Source: Nitrospira sp. (GTDB lineage: Bacteria; Nitrospirota; Nitrospiria; Nitrospirales; Nitrospiraceae). Taken from it: a DNA stretch of 64,000 nt. The DNA lies in the NCBI GenBank assembly GCA_035968315.1, contig JAVYIN010000005.1, positions 186,001-250,000 on the forward strand, read 5' to 3'. The number at the start of each line of letters is the position of its first letter. Position 1 is the stretch's first letter. The notes under the pieces were generated by a model that saw nothing but the letters and a program-made list of their open reading frames with translations, was not told the DNA's origin and searched no databases. Made by a program: the position numbers and the translations under genes. Positions 22,739 through 27,936 of this stretch are shown piece after piece.

Positions 22739-23056
22739 ATGAAAGTCGTAAAATTGTCGGATTATCAGCAGTTTAGTCCTGAGAAGATGAAGAAGAACAA
22801 TATGTTTCAAACGGAGCGATTCTTCTGCGACATCTATTGTTTCGAGCCGGGGCAGGAGCAGAAGGGCCACATTCATGGAGAGCAGGATAAGGTCTATCTT
22901 GTGCTGGAAGGTCAGGGCACGTTTCAGGTCGGATCAGTGAAGCAGGTGCTCGGCCCTGGAGAGGGCACCATGGCTCCGGCCGGGGAAGAGCATGGCGTCA
23001 AGAATCATACGGACCAGCGTTTGAAGGTTCTGGTATTTGTCGCGCCGAATCCATAG
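22739..23056 (+). CDS. Cupin-domain protein
   Basis: A 105-residue single-domain cupin. Motif 1 is GHIHGEQDKVYLVLEGQG, with metal-ligand His, His and Glu-like residues, and motif 2 is PGEGTMAPAGEEHGVKNH with the closing His. Small cupins of this type bind a metal and may act as isomerases, dioxygenases or sensors; the substrate cannot be told. ATG 22739 has AGAGGAG 9 bp upstream and the family's MKVVKLSDY opening. It follows the HdrB-like gene closely. Confidence 0.85.
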   Translation: MKVVKLSDYQQFSPEKMKKNNMFQTERFFCDIYCFEPGQEQKGHIHGEQDKVYLVLEGQGTFQVGSVKQVLGPGEGTMAPAGEEHGVKNHTDQRLKVLVFVAPNP

Positions 23057-23087: not shown

Positions 23088-23852
23088 TCATTCCGCTCGC
23101 AAGGGAATTTTGACGCTGATGGCGCCGGCGAGGTCTCCTTCCTGAGCGCCCTCTTTGGGGTAGCCTGAGATATCCCATTCCCCCTTGGGTCCGCCGTGGC
23201 AGGCGAGGCACTCCCGCTGGTAATAAATCGGCATCATGACGCGCAGGGTGTTGCCTGATTCGGTCAACTCGCTGACATAGGCCTCGCCGTTGGGCCGTCC
23301 CGACAGCCACTGGAGGACGGAGGCTTCATATTCGTCCGGCTCGTTCTTGGGATTGCGCGGTTGTATCGCGGTCTGTTTCAGCTGGACGCGGGACTGTTTG
23401 GAAAACCGCGCGGATGCTTGGCTGCCGAAGGTGGCCGGGATGAAATTCTTATATCCGATCCCGCGCTGATTGATGACGACCTGCGCGTCGCGGACGACGT
23501 CCTTGCTGGCCTCGATCAGGGCCGGCAGGAGGGTGCGGGCCTGAGACGGCACCGCGAACGGCGCCTGTTTCACGGCCAGCGTGCTCAGGTCGATCCCGGT
23601 CCGTTGCCGAAAGATCTCGCTCATCTGCCGTTCAAAGACCTCCGGTGTAAAACCTTTGTCTCCTCTGTGGACATCGTCGATCAAGGCCTGATTCTGTTCA
23701 ATCGCCAGGCGCCCGGCTTGGAAGAGTTTGGCCAGCAGCCGGGCGGTTTCTTCCGCTTCGGCGCGAAGCTGTTCGGGCGGCGATGCCTGGGCAGGAGTGA
23801 GGCCAAGCGCCATTGCCAGGGTGATGAGGGCGAGCCATGGGCGGCGGATCAT
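23088..23852 (-). CDS. Periplasmic c-type heme protein with DUF3365 (Tll0287-like) domain
   Basis: A 254-residue exported protein: signal peptide at residues 1-23 (ending PAQAS), a helical sensor-like region with the DUF3365/Tll0287 pattern (ETARLLAKLFQAGR, YKNFIPATFG), and a heme c motif CLACHGG near residue 215 with GYPKEGAQEGDLAGAISV after it. Such domains are c-heme gas or redox sensors in the periplasm. Start ATG 23852 gives the signal peptide; the longer frame overlaps the neighbour. It is the last gene of the minus-strand run that follows nirK, 19 bp after the solute-binding lipoprotein gene. Confidence 0.85.
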   Translation of the reverse strand: MIRRPWLALITLAMALGLTPAQASPPEQLRAEAEETARLLAKLFQAGRLAIEQNQALIDDVHRGDKGFTPEVFERQMSEIFRQRTGIDLSTLAVKQAPFAVPSQARTLLPALIEASKDVVRDAQVVINQRGIGYKNFIPATFGSQASARFSKQSRVQLKQTAIQPRNPKNEPDEYEASVLQWLSGRPNGEAYVSELTESGNTLRVMMPIYYQRECLACHGGPKGEWDISGYPKEGAQEGDLAGAISVKIPLRAE

Positions 23853-23871
23853 AGAACCTCCTGTGTCGCGG

Positions 23872-24924
23872 TCAGCGCGACGATGATTCCCGGCAGGCGC
23901 CTTGGGCATAGTGCGCCGGCATCTTTTGTACATCGAACGGCAGCCCTTCCGTCGCGGCCCGGCGCGGGTAGGCATAGGATTCGTCGATCCAGCGATGCCG
24001 CATCTGCTCCAGTCGGCCCGAATCCTGGAGCTGGAAAATGACATCGTTGATAAACCAGCGCAACGCATAGCTTTCTTCCGCCATGGCGACGGCATAATCG
24101 GCCTGCGTGAATTGCAGCGGGGTACGCTCGTCCTTCATCAAGAGCTGCCAGTCCCGGCGCGTGGTCTTGATCATGAAGTTCAGAACCGGGTGTGCGCCGA
24201 CGATCACATCGATTGCCGGCGAGAGTCCGGCGGCGGCATGCTCGAAGGCGGCGGGCAGCGAGTCGCACACGAGCAGCCTGGCATTGGTGAGCCTGGCTTC
24301 AGCATAGAGGTGTGCGGCCGTACTGTCTTGAACGGCGACCGTCATTCCGTTCAGGAGCTGTTCCCGCGCCGTGGGGCGGCCGGTCGTTCTGAAGCGCGAT
24401 TGGATCTGGTCGATGATCTCTTTGCGTGTGGCGATGGCGCCGAGGCCGCCTTGTGAAAAGTAGGGCGTGGAGTAGGCGAATCCGGATCGGCCCGGAGAGG
24501 GCGTTCCGGCGGCCACGGCCGAGACAAAGAAGTCCAATTGCCCCTCGTTCAAGAGCAGAAAGAGATCCCGGAATCGAACCAGGTGCAAGACCGGGGTCAC
24601 GGGGGTGCCGCAATGGACCGCAAGCGCCTCACTGATGGTTCGCGCCAGTTCGGTGTCGAGTCCGGTGACTCGGGCGCCTTCGTCGGTCCAGATGGCGGGA
24701 AATACGAATGGCCGAAAAGGCTCGACCGCCATCCCGACCTGGACTTGCTGCCGCCGGCAGATCTTATCCAGTTCGTTGGTCGTGATGGGATAGATCTGGT
24801 GCATCGCATCGAAGATCAGGCCACAGCCCTGCACCATCGGGAGGAGGCAGAGTAGGACGCCGATGGCGAGCGCCGACCGGCGTCTGAGGCAAGCCGGAAC
24901 CATGGCGCAGCCAAGACGATTCAT
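23872..24924 (-). CDS. Extracellular solute-binding (family 3) lipoprotein
   Basis: A protein of about 350 residues with a lipoprotein signal ending LPMVQGC and a family-3 periplasmic-binding domain: VQVGMAVEPFRPFVFP, VTGLDTELARTISEAL, FRDLFLLLNEGQLDFFVSA, STPYFSQGG, and the closing WFINDVIFQLQDSGRLEQM. These proteins bind amino acids or related small molecules for ABC transport or sensing; no permease or ATPase gene is adjacent, so a sensor or chaperone role is possible. ATG 24924 is a choice among several close starts (24993, 24936, 24903). The longest overlaps the preceding outer-membrane gene. Confidence 0.8.
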   Translation of the reverse strand: MNRLGCAMVPACLRRRSALAIGVLLCLLPMVQGCGLIFDAMHQIYPITTNELDKICRRQQVQVGMAVEPFRPFVFPAIWTDEGARVTGLDTELARTISEALAVHCGTPVTPVLHLVRFRDLFLLLNEGQLDFFVSAVAAGTPSPGRSGFAYSTPYFSQGGLGAIATRKEIIDQIQSRFRTTGRPTAREQLLNGMTVAVQDSTAAHLYAEARLTNARLLVCDSLPAAFEHAAAGLSPAIDVIVGAHPVLNFMIKTTRRDWQLLMKDERTPLQFTQADYAVAMAEESYALRWFINDVIFQLQDSGRLEQMRHRWIDESYAYPRRAATEGLPFDVQKMPAHYAQGACRESSSR

Positions 24925-24962
24925 CGTCCCGATCATCGGACGCAGCAGTCGCAGACATTCGC

Positions 24963-25595
24963 TTAATATCGGAATCCGGTTAGAAACAGCCATTGCTGTG
25001 ATTGCCCCGATTCTCCACGGAAATTAACATCGTACTGCGTATATTGCAGACTCAGGTCGAGTGAAATCCCGCGGGCCACCGGAAAACGCACGCCGGTTTG
25101 GCCGCCATAGAGCAGCCCGGGCGCAGTGCGGCCTTGTCCGGAGATGACGGTGCCCAGCAAGGCGCCGACGTAGGGCACCGCGCGGTCTTCCAGCGGACCG
25201 AAAAAAAGATGCTTGAGGATGCGGCCGATTGGCATGGACGCCGGAAACTCGAGAAGGTCCAGGACATTGTTCCAGCGAGGGTTGAGAAACAGCGCATGTT
25301 GATCGGTGTGAAAGTCGTCGGTGTGAATGCTGAAATATTGATAGCCCACCCGCACCTCCCCATCGCCATACCGCAGCGCCGTTAGTCCGGCCTGCAAGGT
25401 GACCTCCCGATCGTTGGGTGCGAATGATTGTTGGCGCAGGGCGACGTCGAAGTTAAACGGCCGCAAGGGCAACACTTCCAGCAGCGCTTCTTGCGCCTGG
25501 GCAGGGAGGGGCAGGAGCAGCGTCAGGGTGATGGCGCATAGGCTGAGCCGAAACGCAGCGGCAGGCCATGCAGGCTCTCGATGGCTGATCGGCAT
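24963..25595 (-). CDS. Outer-membrane beta-barrel-like protein
   Basis: A 210-residue exported protein: signal peptide at residues 1-34 (LTLLLPLPAQAQ), then alternating strands such as DVALRQQSFAPN, EVRVGYQYFSIHTDDFHTD, YVGALLGTVISGQGR and LDLSLQYTQYDVNFRG, ending LFLTGFRY. The terminal aromatic residue is the usual outer-membrane barrel signal. The size suggests an eight-stranded barrel. It lies 9 bp after the HMA-like gene in the nirK-linked run. Function unknown; a distant resemblance to lipid A 3-O-deacylase-like barrels is possible but I see no catalytic motif. Confidence 0.7.
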   Translation of the reverse strand: MPISHREPAWPAAAFRLSLCAITLTLLLPLPAQAQEALLEVLPLRPFNFDVALRQQSFAPNDREVTLQAGLTALRYGDGEVRVGYQYFSIHTDDFHTDQHALFLNPRWNNVLDLLEFPASMPIGRILKHLFFGPLEDRAVPYVGALLGTVISGQGRTAPGLLYGGQTGVRFPVARGISLDLSLQYTQYDVNFRGESGQSQQWLFLTGFRY

Positions 25596-25604
25596 GGCTG
25601 TCCG

Positions 25605-25985
25605 TCAATGCGGCTGGGCCGCTCCATCGGCCGGTTGAGATGAATCGGCGTGGCGGCTGGCGGGTTCCGCCGTGATGCAGGATCGCATAATCTCTGCCCG
25701 GCACCGGCTTCCGCCGATGGCGGCATTGGCGGTGGCCGCGAATGTTTCCTCGGAGAGCGAGGGCCGAGAGATATCGATGAGCACATGGTCTGGCAGTAAG
25801 TCCGGGTCCACATGGAGCACGCCGGTTTGTTGCTGAAGAGTGGTGGTGATCGCGTGCCGGACTGAGAGGCAGTCCGGGCCGCTGAGCATGAGGGCGACAC
25901 GGTCATGCGCCGATTCCGCTCGAGCGGGTTCGTGCCATGCGAGGCAGACACTGAGACCGATGAAGAGGAGGATATGTTGTTTCAG
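25605..25985 (-). CDS. Small exported HMA-like protein, probable CTG start
   Basis: Translation from a CTG at 25985 gives 126 residues: a signal peptide (KQHILLFIGLSVCLAW, cleavage near ARAE), then a beta-alpha-beta pattern (ALMLSGPDCLSVRHAITTTL, GVLHVDPDLLPDHVLIDI, LSEETFAATANA) resembling a heavy-metal-associated domain with one Cys instead of CxxC, and two more Cys near the end. An AAGAGA motif lies 6 bp upstream. No ATG, GTG or TTG precedes the signal peptide in this frame; the first ATG (25889) would remove it. Position between nirK and an outer-membrane protein suggests a copper or redox accessory role, which is inference. Confidence 0.6.
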   Translation of the reverse strand: MKQHILLFIGLSVCLAWHEPARAESAHDRVALMLSGPDCLSVRHAITTTLQQQTGVLHVDPDLLPDHVLIDISRPSLSEETFAATANAAIGGSRCRAEIMRSCITAEPASRHADSSQPADGAAQPH

Positions 25986-26023
25986 AATGTGTCTCTTGTG
26001 AATACGTGGGACGGGACTGATGC

Positions 26024-26053
26024 GCTCCGGCTGATCATATGATCAGCCGGAGC
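26024..26053. promoter_or_regulatory. Perfect 30-bp palindrome between nirK and the HMA-like gene
   Basis: GCTCCGGCTGATCAT and its exact complement meet with no spacer. As RNA it would form a hairpin with a 13-bp stem and an ATAT loop, 13 bp after the nirK stop. No T-run follows on the minus strand, so it looks like an mRNA-stabilising or attenuating hairpin, or a dimeric operator, rather than a standard terminator. Confidence 0.8.
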
Positions 26054-26065
26054 AGGAAATCAACG

Positions 26066-27031
26066 CTACTTCGTTTTTGCCGGCAGTTCCCACGGCACCA
26101 TGGGCATCAAGTTCGTCGAAGGCTTGGCATCGGGGGAGGCCAAGAGGACGGCGATCGCGCCACGGAGGGCCCCGGTCAGGGAGTGGGTCACCAGCGGATA
26201 GGCGCCGGCTGATTCGACGACCACGTCGAAGGTGGCCGCGCTGCCCGGTCCGACGACATAGGTCTGCACGCCCTTGAGATTGTTGGCCGGGTTGCCGCTC
26301 TCGTAGACGTTGTCCCAGATCTCGCCGATCGGGTGGAAGGCGGAGAATTCATTCGGCCCGGCATTCACGAAATAGACGCGCACCCGCTCTCCCGGCTTCG
26401 CATCGAGCTTTCCGCCGCCCGTGACAAACGGGTGATACTTGAAGATGCCGCCGTTGAACATGACGCCATCGAACTTCCGGTCGAACATCGCCTGCACATC
26501 GTTGGGGTTCTTGAAGAACTCTGATTGCACCAACACATATTCCCGATCCGCCTTGGGCCAAACGGACGCATCCTTCGGATCGACGATGATGGCGCCGAAC
26601 ATGCCTCGGGCGATGTGCTGGATCATGGGCGGCGCGCCGCAGTGATAGAAGAAGATGCCGGGTTTCTTGGCCACGAAGGTGTAGCTGATGGTTTCGCCGG
26701 CATTGATGGCCTTGTAATTCTTCAAGAAGTCGATTTCCGCCGCATGGAAGTCCATGGCATGCGGATTCTTGTTCGTGGCCGGGTTGGTCAGGGTAAAGTT
26801 AATCGTATCGCCTTCGGTCACGCGGACGACCGGCCCTGGCATGGTGCCGTTAAACGTCCAGGCCGCATACTTCTCCCCTCCGCCATCGATGACGATGTCG
26901 GATTCGACGGCAGTCATGTGAATGTCATGGGTTTTGGCCAGAGCGGCGGATGACAGTCCCAACGTGCCGGCCAGGGCGATGGCGATCGCTCCCGTCATGG
27001 CGACGAACTGCTGTGATCTATGCCTGTTCAT
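26066..27031 (-). CDS. nirK: Copper-containing nitrite reductase NirK (two-domain)
   Basis: A 321-residue periplasmic enzyme reducing nitrite to nitric oxide. A signal peptide (residues 1-33, ending AALA) precedes two cupredoxin domains. All copper ligands are visible: type 1 copper H91, C131, H139 and M144 (HAMDF, FFYHCGAPP, QHIARGM); type 2 copper H96, H130 and H283; catalytic D94 and H233 (FHPIGE). The short loop between C131 and H139 sets it apart from classical NirK and fits the Nitrospira type. Start ATG 27031 gives the signal peptide. A Crp/Fnr box lies at -41.5 of the inferred promoter. Confidence 0.93.
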   Translation of the reverse strand: MNRHRSQQFVAMTGAIAIALAGTLGLSSAALAKTHDIHMTAVESDIVIDGGGEKYAAWTFNGTMPGPVVRVTEGDTINFTLTNPATNKNPHAMDFHAAEIDFLKNYKAINAGETISYTFVAKKPGIFFYHCGAPPMIQHIARGMFGAIIVDPKDASVWPKADREYVLVQSEFFKNPNDVQAMFDRKFDGVMFNGGIFKYHPFVTGGGKLDAKPGERVRVYFVNAGPNEFSAFHPIGEIWDNVYESGNPANNLKGVQTYVVGPGSAATFDVVVESAGAYPLVTHSLTGALRGAIAVLLASPDAKPSTNLMPMVPWELPAKTK

Positions 27032-27128: not shown

Positions 27129-27173
27129 AGGATACGGAGGTTATTGGGAAAGTAATATGACGCAGGTCATATT
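27129..27173 (-). promoter_or_regulatory. Class II Crp/Fnr-type promoter of nirK
   Basis: AATATGAC-GCAG-GTCATATT (27154-27173) is a perfect inverted repeat with TGAC/GTCA half sites, as bound by NnrR/DNR/Fnr proteins. On the minus strand a TATCCT -10 element (27134-27129) follows, implying a start near 27122 and placing the box centre at exactly -41.5, the class II activator position. Confidence 0.8.
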
Positions 27174-27207: not shown

Positions 27208-27936
27208 TTAGGAGGAGGCAAGCGCTTTTAAGCGGTCAAGATTCAGGATGATGAGGCGGGTTGCAGTGCCGGAGACGAGGCGGTCGCGCTTGAATCGGCT
27301 CATGATGCGAATGGCGGTTTCAGTGGTTGTGCCCACCATATTGGCCATGTCCTGTCTGGTGAGGCGCATCGGGAGCATGAGGCCTTGGGGGGACTGGATG
27401 CCATTGCGAGTGGCGAGGTCTACCAGCAACGACGCGAGCCGCTGGTCGGCTCGGTCGAGTGCGAGGACTTTGGCCTTCTCTTGGGCTTCGTTCAGGCGAT
27501 TCCCCAAATGTTTAATGACTTCGATGGCGGCTTCCGGATTCCGCCGCAGCATGTCGAAGTACGCTTTCTTGTTCATGCGGAGGATGCTGACATCGCCCAT
27601 GGGCTGAGCCGTGCCGGGGTGTGCGGTGCCTTCGAACGCGGCGGCGTCACAACAAAAGAGGTCGCCCGGCATGAGCATTTTGAGGGTGCATTCTTTTCCA
27701 TCCGGCGACGATTTTACGCATTTCACCGTGCCTTCCTTCACGATATGAAAGTATTCTGTCGGATCGCCTTCCCGGAAGATCACGTCCTTTTTGGTGTAGC
27801 GTTGCTCGGTTAAGTCTTGCAGTACACGCTGGCGGTCTGCGCTGGAGAGAATGTTCAGCAGCGGGATATGCGCGAGTTCATCCGGGGGCGATGAACTCGC
27901 GCGGTTACTTGACGATGTGTGTGGCCGCTTCGACAA
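27208..27936 (-). CDS. Crp/Fnr-family transcriptional regulator
   Basis: About 242 residues: a cyclic-nucleotide-binding-like sensor domain (LTEQRYTKKDVIFREGDP, YFHIVKEGTVKCVK, MLMPGDLFCCDAAAF), a long dimer helix (EVIKHLGNRLNEAQ) and a winged helix-turn-helix (RLTRQDMANMVGTTTETAIRIMSRFK). The N-terminal Fe-S cysteine motif of Fnr is absent, so a DNR/NnrR-like heme or NO sensor is more likely. No ATG, GTG or TTG lies between the transketolase stop and the conserved start; a TTG at 27936, 9 bp after GGAG, is the best start and overlaps tkt by 32 bp. It probably controls the adjacent nirK. Confidence 0.82.
   Translation of the reverse strand: MSKRPHTSSSNRASSSPPDELAHIPLLNILSSADRQRVLQDLTEQRYTKKDVIFREGDPTEYFHIVKEGTVKCVKSSPDGKECTLKMLMPGDLFCCDAAAFEGTAHPGTAQPMGDVSILRMNKKAYFDMLRRNPEAAIEVIKHLGNRLNEAQEKAKVLALDRADQRLASLLVDLATRNGIQSPQGLMLPMRLTRQDMANMVGTTTETAIRIMSRFKRDRLVSGTATRLIILNLDRLKALASS

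Follow-up and report, generated by a model that had tools for sequence, protein, structure and literature searches.

A conserved nirK-linked envelope gene block in canonical nitrite-oxidizing Nitrospiraceae and its possible role in binding or sensing nitric oxide

The role of the copper nitrite reductase NirK in nitrite-oxidizing Nitrospira has been given as unknown (PMC8115632, PMC6606698). On nitrite, NO stayed below detection in N. moscoviensis, compared with about 45 nM in the comammox organism N. inopinata (PMC6478695). Among heme proteins of the sCache_heme family, a member carrying an axial Cys released NO quickly, while a member lacking it retained NO (koff of about 6e-4 per second); stand-alone domains of this family were assigned redox roles, and the stand-alone relative that was tested had redox-like properties (PMC12889525, a 2026 preprint). 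Here, we analyzed 64,000 nucleotides of a Nitrospira contig (the window), in which an earlier note had reported nirK followed by genes for an HMA-like exported protein, an outer-membrane barrel, a family-3 solute-binding protein (SBP) lipoprotein without a transporter, and a c-type heme DUF3365 protein. All five genes were recovered, and a literature search turned up no description of such a set, within an open-access library that misses most subscription journals.

Gene content of the block

The five genes occupy positions 23088 to 27031 on the minus strand, separated, from nirK to the heme protein gene, by gaps of about 80, 9, 26, and 19 bp. Upstream of nirK lie a Crp/Fnr-family regulator gene (27208 to 27930, minus strand, 5' end approximate; PF00027 and PF13545) and then transketolase (tkt), while cupin and HdrB-like genes converge on the other end of the block. 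The regulator gene, together with an operator at 27155 to 27172, had been left out of the first account. The nearest relatives of the genome are Nitrospira, with N. moscoviensis (L174) and "Ca. N. defluvii" (L191) among those that share nirK and its downstream genes. This arrangement is not due to chance, because it is kept across many genomes at roughly 51 to 94% protein identity.

The closest solved relative of NirK (26066 to 27031) is 4KNS, which we take to be the enzyme of Nitrosomonas europaea, with homology over nearly the full length (phmmer E value of 1e-104). The match to TIGR02376 (E value of 1e-57, 195.5 bits) fell under the curated equivalog cutoff of 296.3 bits, and the protein is therefore described as a divergent NirK. 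The HCGAPPMIQHIARGM and FHPIGEIWD segments, which carry the copper ligands of the type 1 and type 2 sites, align with 4KNS. The next gene (25605 to 25985, TTG start assumed) encodes a small exported protein with the HMA fold (beta-alpha-beta-beta-alpha-beta), in which only the first Cys of the metallochaperone CxxC metal site is conserved and two further Cys are invariant. The barrel protein (24963 to 25595) had no Pfam or NCBIfam match; its AlphaFold model, of moderate confidence (mean pLDDT of 73.6), has the eight antiparallel strands of OmpW/OmpA-type proteins, and Foldseek matched it to NspA (1.9e-6), OmpW (3e-4), and also OmpA.

The SBP lipoprotein (23872 to 24936) belongs to SBP_bac_3 (PF00497; E value of 2.5e-9, 37.4 bits, cutoff of 26.4), with the profile match covering nearly the whole protein. 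A Gly directly after the lipobox Cys usually marks an outer-membrane lipoprotein, and since this Gly at +2 follows the Cys in 75/75 SBP sequences, an outer-membrane location is predicted. The canonical Asp that binds amino acids occurs in 0/75, its column being occupied by Gly, Ser, Thr, or Ala, and no transporter gene was present in the run; in both respects the protein departs from amino acid ABC binding proteins. Moreover, SBPs encoded beside nirK (linked) and those encoded elsewhere (unlinked) differ cleanly at two pocket columns, and an Arg adjoining the position of the canonical ligand Arg is invariant in the linked ones (36/36).

The last gene (23088 to 23852) encodes a stand-alone Tll0287/DUF3365 (sCache_heme) protein (PF11845; E value of 2e-27, 96.8 bits, cutoff of 24.1) with the heme motif CLACH, the CxxCH pattern being present in 70/70 aligned sequences. 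The two Cys of this motif were the only ones in 69/72 sequences, and across the 72 aligned sequences neither a third Cys nor any His or Met outside the motif is conserved. The axial Cys of redox-type stand-alone members (Tll0287 and the Pseudomonas putida protein) is thus absent, as judged by column conservation alone, with a PDB profile search aligning only the C-terminal part to 5B82. Output fusions of the signaling type (HAMP, kinase, or MCP) are likewise absent from this single-domain protein of 254 amino acids. It therefore appears to join the stand-alone form to a ligand-free site, and NO binding is a prediction drawn from the relative without axial Cys that holds NO (PMC12889525). The gene for a second stand-alone DUF3365 protein, a paralog with 46% identity, opens an operon that also contains CheY-, CheW-, and MCP-type genes (L262:374-4080; G000 contig C5, about 860.4 to 864.1 kb), found in three genomes (this one, N. 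moscoviensis, and G022), which is a hint of signaling.

Linkage to nirK and its control region

The barrel, SBP lipoprotein, and stand-alone heme protein genes were defined as the cassette core, and their order was unvarying across about 80 Nitrospiraceae loci. In a sample of the phylum, the barrel family was detected in 62 of 295 genomes, every one of them Nitrospiraceae, and the 80 matches listed from a search of 84,980 species genomes were all Nitrospira-like records. Two contig sets among these bear the label Nitrosospira and look mislabeled. Records L193, L209, L217, and L234 are titled uncultured Nitrosospira yet carry Nitrospira-type cassettes and are probably mislabeled.

The whole block was kept among close relatives, and in canonical nitrite-oxidizing lineages, that is, those without amoA, including N. 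moscoviensis and "Ca. N. defluvii", the cassette lies downstream of tkt-crp-nirK. On the SBP tree, 36 sequences (window included) have the cassette with tkt/crp/nirK, while the remaining ones have it at polA/lgt, tadA, or other sites; two entries in the linked half come from contigs that break off within the block. The linkage state changed only once on this tree. The earlier note's proposal of a nirK-linked, envelope-spanning set was thus borne out as linkage through the canonical branch, and the differing downstream genes that might have spoken against it were confined to comammox-type genomes. For the genus, amoA was found in 0/11 linked versus 41/47 unlinked genomes (Fisher P value of 5e-8), an association that is descriptive and not independent evidence because linkage is a single evolutionary event. 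nirK itself is nearly universal (73/79 genus genomes) and was present in all 60 genus genomes with the cassette SBP.

Linkage to nirK persisted even where the downstream flank differed (L198, L203, L208, and L238). In addition, the sole cassette remnant 3' of nirK in G088 is a 77-codon tail of DUF3365 (L268:1456-1689), and in G021, an amoA-bearing genome without nirK, crp and the operator remain together with a short stretch that matches the end of DUF3365 (L267:4413-4745); these apparent relics support loss of the cassette from the nirK site. In G021, crp and the operator are followed by genes for a cytochrome c and a cupredoxin-plus-beta-propeller-like protein in place of nirK (L267:4846-6625). 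The small cupin gene (window positions 22739 to 23056) is retained by nearly all relatives that have the tkt locus, even at loci that lack nirK and the cassette (L131-L133 and L143).

The operator is a perfect inverted repeat of the Crp/Fnr type (ATATGAC-N4-GTCATAT), and its form AAACATGAYNNNNRTCATGTTT was found between crp and nirK in 31/31 linked loci with crp annotated, matching at 8 to 10 of 10 core positions. The core pattern occurred once per genome, 5' of nirK, in 9 of 10 genomes, and "Ca. N. defluvii" has two copies, the second preceding its second nirK. A close crp ortholog was detected in 15/79 genus genomes, all 15 of which have the operator; five other sites in four other genus genomes equal the rate of the reversed control. 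The operator was absent 5' of unlinked cassettes and 5' of nirK in genomes with unlinked cassettes. Thus, the Crp/Fnr gene, operator, nirK, and three-gene cassette form one conserved block in canonical nitrite-oxidizing Nitrospiraceae.

The palindrome 3' of nirK (26024 to 26053, minus strand), which the earlier note saw as a place where transcripts might end, is a real stem-loop (z of -4.8). Comparable hairpins were present 3' of nirK in 21/27 linked sequences, whereas none directly followed the 17 other nirK genes examined. The nirK transcript may end at this hairpin, although no U-run was found after it; cotranscription of nirK and the cassette is consequently regarded as putative.

In amoA-bearing (comammox-type) genomes, the cassette occurs at sites other than nirK and without the operator. 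There, nirK in the unlinked-cassette genomes examined is followed by an exported truncated globin gene (PF01152; L033, L034, L036, L038, L043, and L046), then in most of these loci by a single-heme cytochrome c gene and in some by a sigma-54-type regulator gene. Truncated globins are another NO-reactive heme family.

Possible functions of the cassette

The best reading of the block, to which we give a probability of about 0.4, is a NirK-coupled module anchored at the outer membrane that binds or senses NO. The Crp/Fnr protein would control nirK through the operator, and NirK would reduce periplasmic nitrite to NO. The three cassette proteins may assemble on the periplasmic side of the outer membrane, anchored there by the lipoprotein and barrel, which may also recognize another small ligand; within this complex, the NO would bind at the open distal site of the heme Cache protein. 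The module could then either buffer NO at the envelope or relay to another receptor, for example the chemosensory operon of the paralog, and the hairpin could set cassette expression below that of nirK or separate the transcripts. Of the roles that had been offered (copper supply, NO or nitrite sensing, and electron delivery), NO sensing or binding agrees best with the data, given that the axial Cys seen in redox-type members is missing from the heme Cache protein (PMC12889525), and electron delivery found no positive evidence.

In favor of an NO module, we count the fixed order in about 80 loci with one linkage change, the nearly unique operator, present wherever crp was annotated in a linked locus, and its second copy before the second nirK of "Ca. 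N. defluvii", the Cache protein without axial Cys and its paralog with chemosensory genes, the constant co-occurrence of the SBP with nirK (60/60), and the exported globin taking the place 3' of nirK in unlinked-cassette genomes. Against it, we count that the cassette has no transmembrane output partner, that stand-alone sCache_heme domains were given redox roles (PMC12889525), that in comammox-type genomes the cassette lies away from nirK and lacks the operator, that the hairpin may end the nirK transcript, and that linkage to a near-universal gene (73/79) arose in one event.

The strongest competitor, unlikely as it seems to us, is a neighborhood without functional meaning, in which an independent envelope module of the Nitrospiraceae came by chance to lie downstream of nirK in an ancestor and has been passed on in that place. 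The single event on the tree, the unlinked cassettes of most amoA-bearing genomes, and the strong hairpin between nirK and the cassette are consistent with this; however, the cassette was kept at nirK through deep divergence, even with a changed downstream flank, the SBP never occurs without nirK in the genus genomes, and the pocket residues of linked and unlinked SBPs differ cleanly. Electron transfer to or from NirK by the heme Cache protein is improbable: the exported protein does carry a c-type heme motif and the tested stand-alone relative is redox-like (PMC12889525), but the Cys/His ligation that marks redox-type members is absent, and it is in comammox-type genomes that a cytochrome c is encoded near nirK. 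In addition, we know of no barrel or SBP required for electron transfer. We also consider it quite improbable that the SBP-like lipoprotein senses nitrite or another small molecule with the heme protein as its partner, for which the SBP_bac_3 match over nearly the entire protein and the invariant Arg would speak, since the canonical Asp is missing from every sequence. Least probable of all is that the small HMA protein supplies NirK with copper and the other genes are incidental, a role that we reject as the main function: the fold is confirmed and the gene adjoins nirK, but this one protein carries the whole proposal, its CxxC is reduced to one Cys, and its gene lies at tkt/cupin without nirK and the cassette in L131-L133 and L143 and elsewhere in others, and it does not belong to the portable core.

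Returning to the NO module, the conserved set suggests that nitrite-oxidizing Nitrospira may sense or retain the NO that they make. Its fuller version, a dedicated NirK-coupled system for NO capture and signaling at the outer membrane, is rather improbable; if true, capture would explain the undetectable NO of N. moscoviensis compared with N. inopinata, and NirK of canonical Nitrospira would gain a signaling role. The difference in NO fits a cassette role without showing it, the N. inopinata genome lying outside the set compared here. Because the partner set is conserved and comes with a regulator and a nearly single-target operator, the role of NirK is directly testable in cultured strains.

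Comparison with known systems

Each component has a recognizable counterpart from which it departs. NirK is closest in sequence to 4KNS, whereas here nirK is preceded by a Crp/Fnr gene and operator and followed by an envelope cassette. The small protein shares its fold and the position of the first Cys with HMA copper chaperones (CopZ and ATP7 domains); unlike these, it lacks the second Cys and has a signal peptide and two invariant Cys in a C-terminal extension. The barrel shares strand number and fold with OmpW, NspA, and OmpA but falls outside Pfam and NCBIfam and is restricted to Nitrospiraceae in the samples searched. Family-3 amino acid-binding proteins (PF00497, e.g., 6SVF) share their profile with the SBP over nearly its whole length, whereas the protein here is a lipoprotein with a non-Asp residue at +2, no adjoining ABC genes, and Gly, Ser, Thr, or Ala in place of the ligand Asp. 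Finally, the heme protein has the Cache-type domain and CxxCH of sCache_heme (PF11845), a family in which the stand-alone architecture is common (PMC12889525); it differs from the redox-type stand-alone members in lacking the axial Cys and in being encoded together with a barrel, an SBP lipoprotein, and nirK.
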